Of a stretch of 54,532 nt of DNA, positions 2,560-6,689 are shown in pieces. Source of the DNA: Prolixibacteraceae bacterium (GTDB lineage: Bacteria > Bacteroidota > Bacteroidia > Bacteroidales > Prolixibacteraceae); the NCBI GenBank assembly GCA_019163175.1, contig JAFLKN010000058.1, forward strand, positions 1 through 54,532. Direction: 5' to 3'. The translations under genes were made by a program, and so were the position numbers. How positions within the stretch are numbered: the stretch's first letter is position 1; each line of letters starts with the position of its first letter. A model generated the notes under the pieces. That model saw nothing but the letters and a program-made list of their open reading frames with translations, had not been told where the DNA came from and made no database searches.

Positions 2560-2632
2560 AAAGTTACAGGTTTCAGGTTCCAAGTTCCAGAAACAACTTG
2601 AAACTTTAAATTTGGAACTTGAAACTAAATCC
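2560..2632. repeat. Word-like inverted repeat upstream of rnpB
   Basis: The gap between the Smr gene and rnpB holds recurring words of the kind GGTTCCAAGTTCC and GGAACTTGAAAC in inverted orientation. It is one of several different word-like intergenic repeats in this window. Its end supplies the -33 box of the rnpB promoter. Confidence 0.5.
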
Positions 2633-2641
2633 GCATCTTTG
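2611..2641 (+). promoter_or_regulatory. rnpB promoter
   Basis: TTTG at 2611-2614, a 19-base spacer, and CATCTTTG at 2634-2641 (one mismatch to TAnnTTTG). Initiation 4-7 bases downstream would fall at the first strand of the RNase P RNA P1 helix (2645-2652), so promoter and RNA start agree. Confidence 0.6.
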
Positions 2642-2643
2642 CC

Positions 2644-3040
2644 GCGCAAACCGCTCTATCGCTGTCCCGGGTAACCGGGAGAGAGGAAAGTCCGGGCAAC
2701 ACAGGGCACCATGCTTCTTAACAGGAAGGCGGGTGAAAGCTTGCAGTAAGGTAACAGAAAATGACCACCCGGTTTTGACGTGTCACGACCGGGAACGGGT
2801 GAAAAGGTGAGGCAAAAGCTCACCGGTGGTGGTGGCAACATCGCCAGCCGTACCTCTGATGGGTTGCAAAGCCAAATATATCATGATTTTCCGGTACGCC
2901 GGAATACAGAACGGCCCGTTTTGGTTCTTCGGAAGTCGTGAGGGGTAGGCTGCTCGATCAGCTTTGAGAAAAGCTGGCTAGACAAATGATAGGGGTCCCG
3001 AGTAATCGGGATACAGAACCCGGCTTACAGGTTTGCGTTT
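2644..3040 (+). ncRNA. rnpB: RNase P RNA (bacterial class A)
   Basis: This is the catalytic RNA of RNase P, which removes the 5' leader of precursor tRNAs. The conserved core GAGGAAAGTCCGGGC is at 2682-2696 and the matching 3' core ACAGAACCCGGCTTACAGG is at 3013-3031. The closing P1 helix is exact: CGCAAACC (2645-2652) pairs with GGTTTGCG (3030-3037). The CAGAA and GGGGTAGGCTGCTCGA segments between them fit the bacterial A-type fold. The length of about 395 bases is normal. A run of seven T follows P1. Reading frames that cross this region are accidental. Confidence 0.95.
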
Positions 3041-3049
3041 TTTTATAAA

Positions 3050-3085
3050 AAATAAGGCGATCATTGAGAGATGATCGCCTTATTT
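3050..3085. terminator. Bidirectional terminator between rnpB and the M56 gene
   Basis: A perfect 15-bp stem (3050-3064 with 3071-3085) with a 6-base loop, flanked by A- and T-rich sequence on both sides. It lies between two convergent genes and can serve both. Confidence 0.8.
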
Positions 3086-3113
3086 GATTTATTAAACTAC
3101 TAAAATCTTATCA

Positions 3114-5930
3114 TCATTGGTTGACGACAAGTTGACTCGATACTTTATTTTGATTTTCGCTGTCTAGGCCTACCACCAGATAGGTTCCTGGGGGAAGTTT
3201 GTTAATCGACAGTGAAAAAGTCGAACTATTTTTAGATTCTTTCCTGATTAATTTCCCAGTACTGTCATAAATACTTATTTCCAGCTTATTGGTTGATTCG
3301 GAACCAACCAATGTAATTCTCGTATTGTCACTTGTTGGATTGGGAAAAATGCTAAGTTTTAATGTTTTATTGTTTTTGGTGTATGAATTGGCTGTAGCTC
3401 TTAGTTTTTCATTGCTCTTCGGATGATAATCACCAGGGAGAACAAAGTTGATAGGCATTTCGTAGGTCACATCTACGTTTTCACCTTGCTGTTTGCCGGG
3501 GCTCCACTTGGGCATCGATTCTACAATTCGTTTTGCTTCCTTATCCAACGACGGGTCAACTCCACGTGAAACCTTGGCATTGGTAACCTTTCCGGTTTTA
3601 TCGACCACAAATTTCACAAATACCTGACCTTGTATTCCATTTTCAAGAGCAATCGTTGGGTATTTCAGGCTTGAATAAACAAAAGTCTTCAAAGCTTCGG
3701 TTCCGCCCGGAAACTGTGGCATTTCTTCAACCATGGTAAAGACATCGCCTGTTTTCTTTGTGGTAATTTCGAGCACTCCGTTTTTGCCTTTTTCACCGTA
3801 TTTTGCAGCTGCGGATTCATTTTTTAAAACATTGATTAACAGAATTGTTTCCGGATCGATACTTTCTATTTTCAAGTTTTCTGAAATTACGCCGTCTTTT
3901 ACAATCAAAGGTTTATTCCCAGTTTCAGCACTACGGATTCTGAATTCTGAACTTGAATGTTCTGCTGAGTTTTGATTTTGCATTTTTCCATATCCGACCA
4001 CAACAACATCAGATGTTCCATTTTGTGAAGTTGAGACTTCCTTCTTTATGGTAATCAGAATTACGCCGTTTTTACCTTTTTCACCGTAAATACTGGTAGC
4101 AGATTCGCCTTTTAGTACATTAACAGATTCAATCGTTTCATAAGGGATGTCATTCACATTCTGGTTTTCAGCAATTACTCCATCAATTACGATCAATGGT
4201 TTGGGGTCGGGTCCAGTTCCAGTGCTCCTGATTCTGAATCCTGAATTTGATTGTTCTGGCGAGTTATCTTTTTGCATTTTGCCATAGCCGATTACTTGAA
4301 CTTCTTCCGAATTATTGCCAGTTCCGGCTTTTCCTTTTTTCATCGAAATTAAAACAACTCCGTTTTTCCCTTTGTCGCCATATAAAATGGTGGCTGATTC
4401 ATCTTTTAAAACGCTAATCGATTCTATTGTTTCCGGGTCAAGGTTCTGTACATCTTTCGATTCTGCAACAATCCCGTCTTTCACATAAAGCGGTTCCTTC
4501 CCGGAACCATCGACTGTAACAAATTTTAAAGGACCATCAGCTTGAATTTTATAAGTTTCAGAATTCTGTTTATCGGATTTTAAGGTAATTAAAACAACCC
4601 CATCTTTTCCCTTTTCTCCGTATTTTTCAACTGAAGTTCTATTTTTAAGAACATCAACTCGGTCAATGTTATTTGGATTTATTTTTTCCAATTCAGCTTT
4701 TGTGGTTTCTTTTCCATCAATGATTATAAGTGCGTTTGATTTCATTAAATCGATTGGCTCTTCCTTTGCAGCTGCCGGTGCCTGATTGTTCAATTTTATA
4801 GAAATGGTTGCTCCTTTCAGGATAATCTTCATTTCCTTTTCGAAATCAGGATTAACTTTTGCCGACTCAAAACCAACATACGAAATCATTATTGGCGAAT
4901 CGTCAGTTACTTTGAGCATAAAATTTCCATTGTCGTCAGTCATTGTTCCGATTGTTTTGCCTAAAATAACAACTGATGCGCTTTTCAATGGTTTCCCCTT
5001 TTCGTCGCTAACTTTTCCTTTTATTGTTTTTTCGTTTTGAGTTGCATTTGCTGCAAGCTCTTCGGCCTGAACAAACTTGTATTCGGGCGCGGCAAAAGCA
5101 TAGAAAACCCCTGCTATAAGCGGCAGTACCAGTAAAAGTCTCAGTTTCCGAATTGGTGAACTTATAGTCTGTTTCATCATGGTAAATCGTTTTTTGTTGA
5201 GTGAATAATTGAATGAATTGGCCAGCGAAATCACTGGCCCGCCGAACATCTGGTTCAGCAATGCTGCACGGTAAATAGCCGGATTGGAGCTGCGCTGCAG
5301 CGCACGCTCGTCGGCCAGGTATTCGTGGTTTTGTCTGATCAGATGGCCATAAAGCCAAATGGCAGGATTAAACCATTGCATCGTGCGAAGGATTTCAAAA
5401 AGCAATAAATCAATCCAGTGCTGTTGCCTGACGTGCTCCATTTCGTGGTTCACAATTTCGTTCGTTTCGGTGTCGGAGATTGAAGGATTGACAAATACGA
5501 ACGAGAAAAATGAAAACGAAGCGGGATATTCGGCAGTACGGATCAATTTTGCTGAACTATGCTGAAGTACTTCTGACTTCCGAATGATATGGAAAACTGG
5601 AAGAGTCTGCCGCAGAATACGAAAGATCAGGTAAGCAATTCCTGAAATGTACATAAACAGGAGCAACACATTTTGAGTTAAAAATGGCTCATTCACTTCG
5701 GCAATTCCCTGAATCTGTGGCTCGAAAACTTCAGAAGTAGGAACAACAGGCAGTACCACAGTGTAATGCCAGGTAAAGAGTGGAAAAATAATGGAGACCA
5801 GAATTCCGGAAACCAGGTAAATGCGGTTCAAAACGAAGAACCGTTCGTTCCGGAGAAACAGCGCGTAAACCAAGGCAAAACCAGTAAGCCAAACCGACGA
5901 TTTAATCAGATATGTTGCTAATGCTTCCAT
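3114..5930 (-). CDS. M56 (BlaR1-like) membrane peptidase with CarboxypepD_reg-like, four SusC-plug-like repeats, TonB C-terminal and T9SS sorting domains
   Basis: A 938-residue mosaic. Residues 1-281 are a BlaR1/MecR1-type M56 metallopeptidase with about four membrane segments (near 8-27, 35-55, 88-105, 263-281) and the zinc motif HEMEH at 162-166. Residues 302-372 resemble the CarboxypepD_reg-like domain found in front of SusC receptors. Four repeats at about 398-451, 479-532, 577-630 and 673-726 read like the SusC plug (DGVIAEN..ETIESVNVLKGESAT..YGEKGKNGV); repeats 3 and 4 are each preceded by a SusC-like V(I/V)GYGKMQ motif. A TonB C-terminal domain (735-831, starting MPQFPGG) and a T9SS type-A sorting tail (858-938, starting IFPNPTSDNTRITL) follow. 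It lies 10 bases after a BlaI-type repressor gene, so it is probably the signal-sensing protease that inactivates that repressor. The signal is unknown. A T9SS tail on an inner-membrane protein is odd. Confidence 0.85.
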   Translation of the reverse strand: MEALATYLIKSSVWLTGFALVYALFLRNERFFVLNRIYLVSGILVSIIFPLFTWHYTVVLPVVPTSEVFEPQIQGIAEVNEPFLTQNVLLLFMYISGIAYLIFRILRQTLPVFHIIRKSEVLQHSSAKLIRTAEYPASFSFFSFVFVNPSISDTETNEIVNHEMEHVRQQHWIDLLLFEILRTMQWFNPAIWLYGHLIRQNHEYLADERALQRSSNPAIYRAALLNQMFGGPVISLANSFNYSLNKKRFTMMKQTISSPIRKLRLLLVLPLIAGVFYAFAAPEYKFVQAEELAANATQNEKTIKGKVSDEKGKPLKSASVVILGKTIGTMTDDNGNFMLKVTDDSPIMISYVGFESAKVNPDFEKEMKIILKGATISIKLNNQAPAAAKEEPIDLMKSNALIIIDGKETTKAELEKINPNNIDRVDVLKNRTSVEKYGEKGKDGVVLITLKSDKQNSETYKIQADGPLKFVTVDGSGKEPLYVKDGIVAESKDVQNLDPETIESISVLKDESATILYGDKGKNGVVLISMKKGKAGTGNNSEEVQVIGYGKMQKDNSPEQSNSGFRIRSTGTGPDPKPLIVIDGVIAENQNVNDIPYETIESVNVLKGESATSIYGEKGKNGVILITIKKEVSTSQNGTSDVVVVGYGKMQNQNSAEHSSSEFRIRSAETGNKPLIVKDGVISENLKIESIDPETILLINVLKNESAAAKYGEKGKNGVLEITTKKTGDVFTMVEEMPQFPGGTEALKTFVYSSLKYPTIALENGIQGQVFVKFVVDKTGKVTNAKVSRGVDPSLDKEAKRIVESMPKWSPGKQQGENVDVTYEMPINFVLPGDYHPKSNEKLRATANSYTKNNKTLKLSIFPNPTSDNTRITLVGSESTNKLEISIYDSTGKLIRKESKNSSTFSLSINKLPPGTYLVVGLDSENQNKVSSQLVVNQ

Positions 5931-5940
5931 GTTGTTGGTT

Positions 5941-6306
5941 TTAGTCTTTCGACAGTTCTTTCCGGGTTTCTTCCATCAATTGTTCCAAATCCTGAATAGT
6001 CAGGTCTTTTTCGCGGGCAAAAAACGAAGCCATTGCCGGAAACGAGTTGTTGAAATAGCTTTTCATTAATCCAAAAAGCTGAGTCTTTGAATAGTCTTCC
6101 TTCGTTACCAAAGGAAAATAAACATGCACGTTTCCGTAAGTGCGGTGCGATACAAAATCTTTCTTTTCCAGAATTCGCAGTACGGTAGAAACCGTGTTGC
6201 GCACGGGTTTTGGGTCGTCAAACCGGTCGCGGATATCTTTAACCAGACCTTCGCCCATTTCCCATAAATGTTGCATTACCTGTTCTTCTGCTTTTGTCAG
6301 TTGCAT
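5941..6306 (-). CDS. BlaI/MecI/CopY-family transcriptional repressor
   Basis: The 121-residue protein has the winged-helix BlaI pattern: MQLTKAEEQVMQHLWEMGEG, the recognition region around NTVSTVLRILEKKDFVSHR, and a C-terminal dimerisation helix (TIQDLEQLMEETRKELSKD). Family members bind DNA as dimers and are cleaved after signalling by the partner M56 membrane protease, which is encoded next, 10 bases downstream. The likely operators are two palindromes of the form GACTA-N6-TAGTC about 330-380 bases upstream, one inside the promoter, which points to autoregulation. The 5' leader is unusually long, about 310 bases, and holds a repeat element. The regulated stress is not shown by the sequence; beta-lactam resistance should not be assumed. 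Confidence 0.9.
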   Translation of the reverse strand: MQLTKAEEQVMQHLWEMGEGLVKDIRDRFDDPKPVRNTVSTVLRILEKKDFVSHRTYGNVHVYFPLVTKEDYSKTQLFGLMKSYFNNSFPAMASFFAREKDLTIQDLEQLMEETRKELSKD

Positions 6307-6344
6307 ATCAGTAGTTTTTTATGAATATCCAGTCTGCCTATGTT

Positions 6345-6590
6345 CTTTAATGGGGCTTTGCCCCCATTCCCCAATTACTTTTTTGTCTTGACACAAAAAA
6401 GTAATCAAAAAAGGTCAAGACTTCGTTCGCTTCGCTCGAAAAACCAACGCTTGACAACTAAAATCTTTTAAACTCTCCCGGTTTCACCGGGATCTAACAG
6501 AAAAGATTTTTTAACGTCGTCTTCACTTGTTTTTCGGCTCACCGAACAAGGTCGGGTGTCTTTCTGCGTGGACTTAATAGGTAAAAGAAC
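6345..6590. repeat. Nested inverted-repeat element in the blaI-type leader
   Basis: The region contains several hairpins: AATGGGG/CCCCATT (6349-6355/6362-6368), a perfect 13-bp stem ATTACTTTTTTGT/ACAAAAAAGTAAT (6374-6386/6393-6405) around the loop CTTGAC, and AAAATCTTTT/AAAAGATTTT (6460-6469/6501-6510) enclosing CCCGG/CCGGG (6477-6481/6487-6491). No reading frame is convincing. It resembles short dispersed elements seen in Bacteroidota genomes; membership of a named family is not claimed. Confidence 0.6.
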
Positions 6591-6624
6591 GGATATTCTA
6601 TTTTTATTTGTCAATCCTTCACAA

Positions 6625-6656
6625 CAAATATATGACTATAAAATTAGTCAGCCAAA
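6625..6656 (-). promoter_or_regulatory. Promoter of the BlaI/M56 operon
   Basis: On the minus strand TTTG (6653-6656), a 20-base spacer, then TATATTTG (6625-6632), both exact matches to the Bacteroides consensus. The spacer is almost wholly occupied by a palindrome, so repressor binding would block the polymerase directly. Confidence 0.7.
6633..6650. promoter_or_regulatory. Operator 1, TGACTA-N6-TAGTCA
   Basis: An 18-base palindrome with perfect 6-base arms (6633-6638 and 6645-6650), placed between the -33 and -7 boxes of the promoter that drives the BlaI-type gene. It is the proposed binding site of that repressor, by position and by sharing its arms with operator 2. Confidence 0.65.
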
Positions 6657-6673: not shown

Positions 6674-6689
6674 GACTAAAAATATAGTC
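6674..6689. promoter_or_regulatory. Operator 2, GACTA-N6-TAGTC
   Basis: A second copy of the same dyad with the same 6-base spacing, 40 bp centre to centre from operator 1 and just upstream of the -33 box. A degenerate third dyad (ACT at 6693-6695, AGT at 6702-6704, shorter spacing) follows. Confidence 0.6.

Follow-up and report, generated by a model that had tools for sequence, protein, structure and literature searches.

Why a BlaR1-type sensor protease should carry parts of the outer-membrane nutrient uptake machinery is the question raised by a 54,532-nucleotide stretch of DNA from a Prolixibacteraceae bacterium (contig JAFLKN010000058.1 of assembly GCA_019163175.1; the window hereafter), in which a single M56 gene joins a protease domain to pieces of SusC transporters, a TonB C-terminal domain and a type IX secretion system (T9SS) tail. 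The gene lies directly behind one for a BlaI-like repressor, and we give an even chance to the reading that the two form a self-regulating BlaI-M56 module, with a periplasmic half that keeps track of TonB-dependent uptake. With candidate binding sites for the repressor seen only at its own promoter, the arrangement suggests a self-contained device for reading or damping nutrient uptake. The domains, the intact catalytic residues, the match to the Ton box, the operon and the restriction of an operator pair to this locus are all taken from the sequence.

An earlier note on this DNA had described an M56/BlaR1-type peptidase with HEMEH, and this was borne out, Pfam Peptidase_M56 matching residues 148-238 above its cut-off (E 2.9e-11, 43.5 bits against 31) with the zinc motif in place. 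H162, E163, H166, E203 and D207 are invariant across all 19 aligned M56 proteins, E203 presumably being the downstream Glu zinc ligand of the M56 site. The features of the M56/BlaR1 family are found together: the M56 profile, HExxH with a downstream Glu, and an adjacent BlaI/MecI-type repressor. Pfam also places above its curated cut-offs CarbopepD_reg_2 (residues 303-376, E 9.1e-14), corresponding to the N-terminal extension (NTE) of SusC proteins, Plug (E 1.1e-27; four stretches at a permissive setting, three at E<=0.001), TonB_C (residues 755-831, E 2.3e-21) and Por_Secre_tail (residues 861-935, E 8.8e-13, 48.8 bits against 27), and NCBIfam finds five SusC/RagA stretches, four SusC-signature stretches and one T9SS type-A tail (40.8 against 23). 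Six domain kinds of the sensor exceed Pfam or NCBIfam curated cut-offs, the exception being, as expected, the full-length SusC model of NCBIfam (248.6 against 368.25 bits), whose stretches are confined to the plug/NTE part. The TonB C-terminal domain and the T9SS type-A-like end of the earlier note are thereby confirmed; its list named these domains correctly but overlooked the NTE and does not mention the upstream blaI or the operators. The protein has the TonB_C fold, but where a TonB has a single N-terminal TM helix that couples to ExbBD, it has an M56 domain and four hydropathy transmembrane (TM) segments, no search aimed at the ExbBD-binding motif having been made. It also has the NTE and Ton box of SusC/RagA proteins without a whole plug and beta-barrel. 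By analogy with BlaR1, it probably resides in the inner membrane, the zinc site facing the cytoplasm, and some 650 residues of periplasm-facing SusC/TonB parts would make up its periplasmic half.

The repeats of that half had been described as four near-identical plug repeats with VGYG between them. Four SusC-plug-type units are indeed present, but they resemble one another without being near-identical (over a 49-nt core, the DNA copies share 65-78% identity with the reference copy; conserved protein core of 48 aa), and VGYG stands before repeats 3 and 4 only. The units correspond to the C-terminal, mechanically strong half of the SusC plug, most of the force-unfolded N-terminal half being absent; one plug half has been reported to be mechanically strong (PMC5413942). 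VGYG matches the Ton box of SusC proteins of the same genome, as scored with a matrix of our own, and repeats 3 and 4 couple a Ton box to the strong half-plug. The count of four units by our plug hidden Markov model is partly circular, because the units used to build it include those of the window, while Pfam and NCBIfam agree with it independently. Two Mariniphaga-type family members, L143 and L146, have a proline-rich stretch behind the Ton box, much as in the spacer of TonB.

The other part of the module is the repressor gene with its promoter (Table 1). A BlaI reading frame lies directly upstream of the M56 gene in 20 of 26 loci, and paired palindromes are found in the blaI promoter at all 22 loci compared (the window and 21 of the 26; L145, which has no findable blaI start, and L147-L150 were left out), at a spacing of 39-41 bp, with 18 exact pairs and four that have an altered end base. 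The proximal palindrome lies between TTTG and TAnnTTTG, which we take to be Bacteroidota promoter elements, in 16 of the 22. The 5.9-Mb draft genome to which the window belongs has two exact copies of GACTA-N6-TAGTC, both at the blaI-m56 promoter, and there are 52 in the 20 genomes searched among 22 others of the same genus (305 times for the reversed-pattern control). The operator pair stands at the blaI-m56 locus in 19 of these 20; G005, the sole searched genome without an operator site, also has no M56 match. In G014 a further pair follows a prfC-like gene near the end of a contig, as at the window locus, and we take it for a duplicate of the blaI-m56 locus in that assembly. Besides the pairs, 12 single sites are scattered over the 20 genomes, and the three inspected (G013 C109, G015 C106 and G012 C1, with open reading frames (ORFs) checked in two) showed no paired operator. 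Allowing up to one mismatch, the promoter-context pattern gave two exact matches in the window's own genome, at the window promoter and at a paralogue on C27, and three with one mismatch, against eight for the control. Among 13 loci, no downstream gene is common to all, although two loci share a gene pair, and the operon is therefore taken to be blaI-m56. On present evidence, the exact operators of blaI-m56 appear confined to its own promoter. The paralogous blaI-M56 pair (C27:17278-17459; L035, L222-L225) has a motif of its own, AACTAA-N4-TTAGTT, with six sites in the genome, four of them at its promoter (control, three).

Table 1. Features of the blaI-m56 locus in window coordinates, with residue numbers of the M56 protein
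Feature	Position	Strand	Remarks
M56 sensor-protease gene	3114..5930	-	938 aa; ORF borders exact
M56 domain, residues 1-284	5079..5930	-	four hydropathy TM segments (starts 3, 30, 83, 258)
HEMEH zinc motif, residues 162-166	5433..5447	-	
SusC-type NTE (CarboxypepD_reg-like), residues 302-376	4803..5027	-	
Half-plug unit 1, residues 401-448	4587..4730	-	
Half-plug unit 2, residues 481-528	4347..4490	-	
Ton box 1, residues 542-551	4278..4307	-	
Half-plug unit 3, residues 579-626	4053..4196	-	
Ton box 2, residues 640-649	3984..4013	-	
Half-plug unit 4, residues 675-722	3765..3908	-	
TonB C-terminal domain, residues 738-831	3438..3719	-	
T9SS type-A C-terminal domain, residues 859-937	3120..3356	-	
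BlaI-like repressor gene	5941..6306	-	121 aa; Penicillinase_R E 3.9e-27; ends 10 bp before M56 start
Promoter-like TTTG-N20-TAnnTTTG	6625..6656	-	proximal operator between both elements
Proximal operator palindrome GACTA-N6-TAGTC (predicted)	6634..6649	.	
Distal operator palindrome (predicted)	6674..6689	.	40 bp from the proximal one

Between operator and blaI lies a dispersed repeat of about 270 bp (window 6330-6600), with copies 82-92% identical on C2, C4, C6, C24 and C38, which places the promoter about 340 bp from blaI. A similar insert occupies the equivalent position in L126, and a different one of about 115 bp is found in L137, where the blaI frame examined upstream of 1193 does not read through, though a start was found, presumably owing to assembly error or decay. 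A bacterial class A RNase P RNA (window 2643-3043) adjoins the sensor gene at its 3' end.

Across the family, the make-up of the periplasmic half shifts quickly inside one genus. Plug units are present in 16 of 18 complete proteins, NTE and TonB_C together in 15, the T9SS tail in seven and a BamA-type POTRA in three, with up to four plug units (five in L132, which is cut), and up to three TonB_C and two tails, both of these maxima in L137. The POTRA of L139 and L142 is confirmed by Pfam; it follows four plug units in L139, and stands alone, with neither plug nor TonB_C, in L140 and L142. The ratio of nonsynonymous to synonymous substitution (dN/dS) has a median of 0.12-0.25 in each of seven segments (15-21 pairs from seven genomes, dS being saturated in 0-9 pairs per segment), and lies at 0.12-0.18 for the plug units, the NTE and TonB_C. 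Joined genes or a frameshift were ruled out, because the same kind of fusion recurs in many separate assemblies and is under purifying selection. The earlier note proposed looking for this domain order in other M56 proteins; among 58 complete M56 ORFs from outside the genus, 20 carry TonB_C, 10 a plug unit and 27 either of them, two carry the NTE, and none has a T9SS tail or a POTRA. These ORFs came from the top search matches and 20 hand-picked stretches and were scanned with profiles from the sensor family, so that they are not a random sample and do not amount to a complete tally. Fusions of M56 with TonB_C or with a plug are already common in Bacteroidota, and the sensor is a variation on them; a literature search for M56/BlaR1 proteins with TonB or plug domains turned up no paper on such fusions.

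The simplest scheme for how such a protein might work, and the likeliest, is one of competition. Loaded SusC transporters would expose their Ton boxes, and these, along with the sensor's own boxes, would vie for binding to TonB and to the sensor's TonB_C, while the sensor's own boxes could be held either by TonB or by its own TonB_C. The periplasmic half could read the state of uptake because its TonB_C can compete for released Ton boxes and its own boxes can be held. Altered engagement would shift the TM helices and turn the protease on, and the active protease would cut BlaI and derepress the blaI-m56 promoter. In BlaR1, according to PMC7593790, the sensor is cut, and cuts BlaI, once it is engaged. 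The NTE may contribute an extra contact, since that of Bacteroides thetaiotaomicron has been implicated in TonB interaction, as a citing paper states (PMC12204202). As the pair controls only itself on present evidence, the M56 protein may also be the output, and it is possible, if rather unlikely, that the sensor is its own effector, a decoy homeostat in which BlaI controls only its own promoter and the amount of M56 protein is what the signal changes. In the periplasm the decoy would then present Ton boxes joined to plug halves resistant to unfolding, along with a motorless TonB domain; when uptake is too high or TonB overcommitted, BlaI would be cut, more decoy made, and TonB/SusC traffic damped. 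The Ton boxes would serve as handles pulling on a mechanically strong unit, and the whole as a proteolytic homeostat for TonB-dependent uptake.

Several points weigh against reading the module as an uptake monitor. Its topology, the cleavage of BlaI, the binding of Ton boxes and the signal are what we infer. The earlier suggestion that the protein senses uptake by imitating the plug was strengthened by the NTE, the two Ton boxes and TonB_C, but it stays a conjecture, with scoring Ton boxes in seven of 25 family proteins (eight boxes, several of the 25 proteins being cut at contig ends; a ninth hit, inside TonB_C of L137, was left out, as were degenerate boxes seen by eye at the equivalent position in alignments of further members) and none in other-genus M56 proteins totalling 20,455 aa. 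In the structure models, the Ton-box stretches have confidence (pLDDT) below 50 and are not predicted to dock onto TonB_C. The full model also has low confidence in its M56 part, which is too poor for a fold test, and those fold searches that used pdb libraries alone gave nothing useful. The rarity of the operator may reflect general word rarity, because the reversed pattern occurs 22 times in the window's own genome against twice for the operator motif, and exact matching overlooks degenerate operators.

The two orthologues that have a POTRA without plug or TonB_C weigh in the same direction, and it follows that the input is not TonB uptake in every orthologue. They lend themselves to a different account, in which the protein is a general envelope-stress sensor and the borrowed domains, SusC plugs and BamA-type POTRA alike, are exchangeable binders of misassembled outer-membrane proteins rather than readers of uptake. 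The third POTRA, beside plug units, and the quick module turnover within the genus fit this account too; yet NTE and TonB_C occur together in most complete family proteins, and stress by itself hardly accounts for the presence of Ton boxes next to a domain that binds them, so that we consider this account unlikely, though worth keeping in view. Copy numbers that vary among close relatives, and the 53 SusC genes above cut-off in this genome as possible donors, could also point to drift, with recombination pasting plug pieces into a fast-changing, little-constrained tail. This is quite improbable: the units are one plug half rather than random pieces, reading frames are kept across many genomes, and purifying selection on plug units, NTE and TonB_C already disfavours it.

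Export was the other proposal of the earlier note, namely that the C-terminal half is cleaved and leaves the cell; in this reading it would be cut off after signalling and sent out through the T9SS. The C-terminal domain (CTD) is real by sequence, its fold fits T9SS CTDs, though with Z scores similar to those of unrelated immunoglobulin-like folds, and the translocon protein SprA is encoded in the genome. Against this, the tail is absent from 11 of the 18 complete proteins and its distribution needs two changes on the tree of 25 M56 domains; all seven tails have Q or H (Q in the window) at a position that is K in 25 of 28 CTDs of this genome, a residue whose importance is not established; and the sensor, with an M56 domain and TM segments in its interior, is unlike a soluble substrate exported with a Sec signal peptide, as judged without a signal-peptide program, whereas 13 other CTD proteins with their N-terminus in the locus show no TM start after residue 15 (by hydropathy, at a stricter threshold than for the sensor). 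Export therefore seems very unlikely. A beta-lactam-type BlaR1/BlaI resistance switch shares its protease and repressor families with the module, but it is scarcely credible here, given a blaR1 model score of 23.8 against a cut-off of 400 and an operon of two genes without a beta-lactamase. Identity as a beta-lactam BlaR1 was rejected, the penicillin-binding sensor domain being absent among 14 Pfam hits up to E 10.

The uptake-monitoring reading can be set beside systems already described. Like BlaR1/MecR1 with BlaI/MecI, the module has an M56 zinc protease with HExxH, an adjacent BlaI-family repressor and a palindromic promoter operator, while it differs by its SusC/TonB parts, by lacking a penicillin-binding domain and by an exact operator that reveals no target beyond the blaI-m56 pair. 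The M56-TonB_C and M56-plug proteins of Bacteroidota, of which an M56/MecR1-TonB group is reportedly covered by Chu et al. (2007) in a review on TonB, have the same basic plan but not the extended series running from NTE through plug units, Ton boxes and TonB_C to the tail. With SusC/RagA transporters the sensor has in common the NTE, the Ton box and the C-terminal plug half, whereas it lacks the barrel and most of the weak N-terminal plug half, and would sit, joined to a protease, in the inner membrane. Cell-surface signalling, in which a TonB-dependent receptor acts with an anti-sigma factor, likewise passes transporter state to transcription through an inner-membrane protein (PMC7593790); here the output would be BlaI cleavage instead of a sigma factor, and the receptor's own parts lie inside the sensor. 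Elsewhere in the same genome (C2:498550-501800; L228:751-2413 and 2592-4001), an ORF with sigma-70 region 4 overlaps an anti-sigma-like protein that has a SusC NTE, a SusC-kind Ton box and a weak TonB_C (20.2 bits, below cut-off), and next to this pair is a vWA protein that likewise has an NTE and a Ton box. The NTE-Ton box unit has therefore moved more than once into inner-membrane signalling proteins.

Bacteroidota have tens of SusC transporters and few shared TonB proteins, which raises the question of how TonB load is sensed. The sensor family offers an inner-membrane protease in which the two sides of the Ton-box contact are united, together with a candidate operator that is private to the blaI-m56 pair as far as exact matching goes, so that sensing of TonB load would be testable by one reporter. 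In addition, a mechanically strong plug half (PMC5413942) appears here reused as a separate module with a Ton box attached, and BlaI-M56 pairs need not serve resistance.
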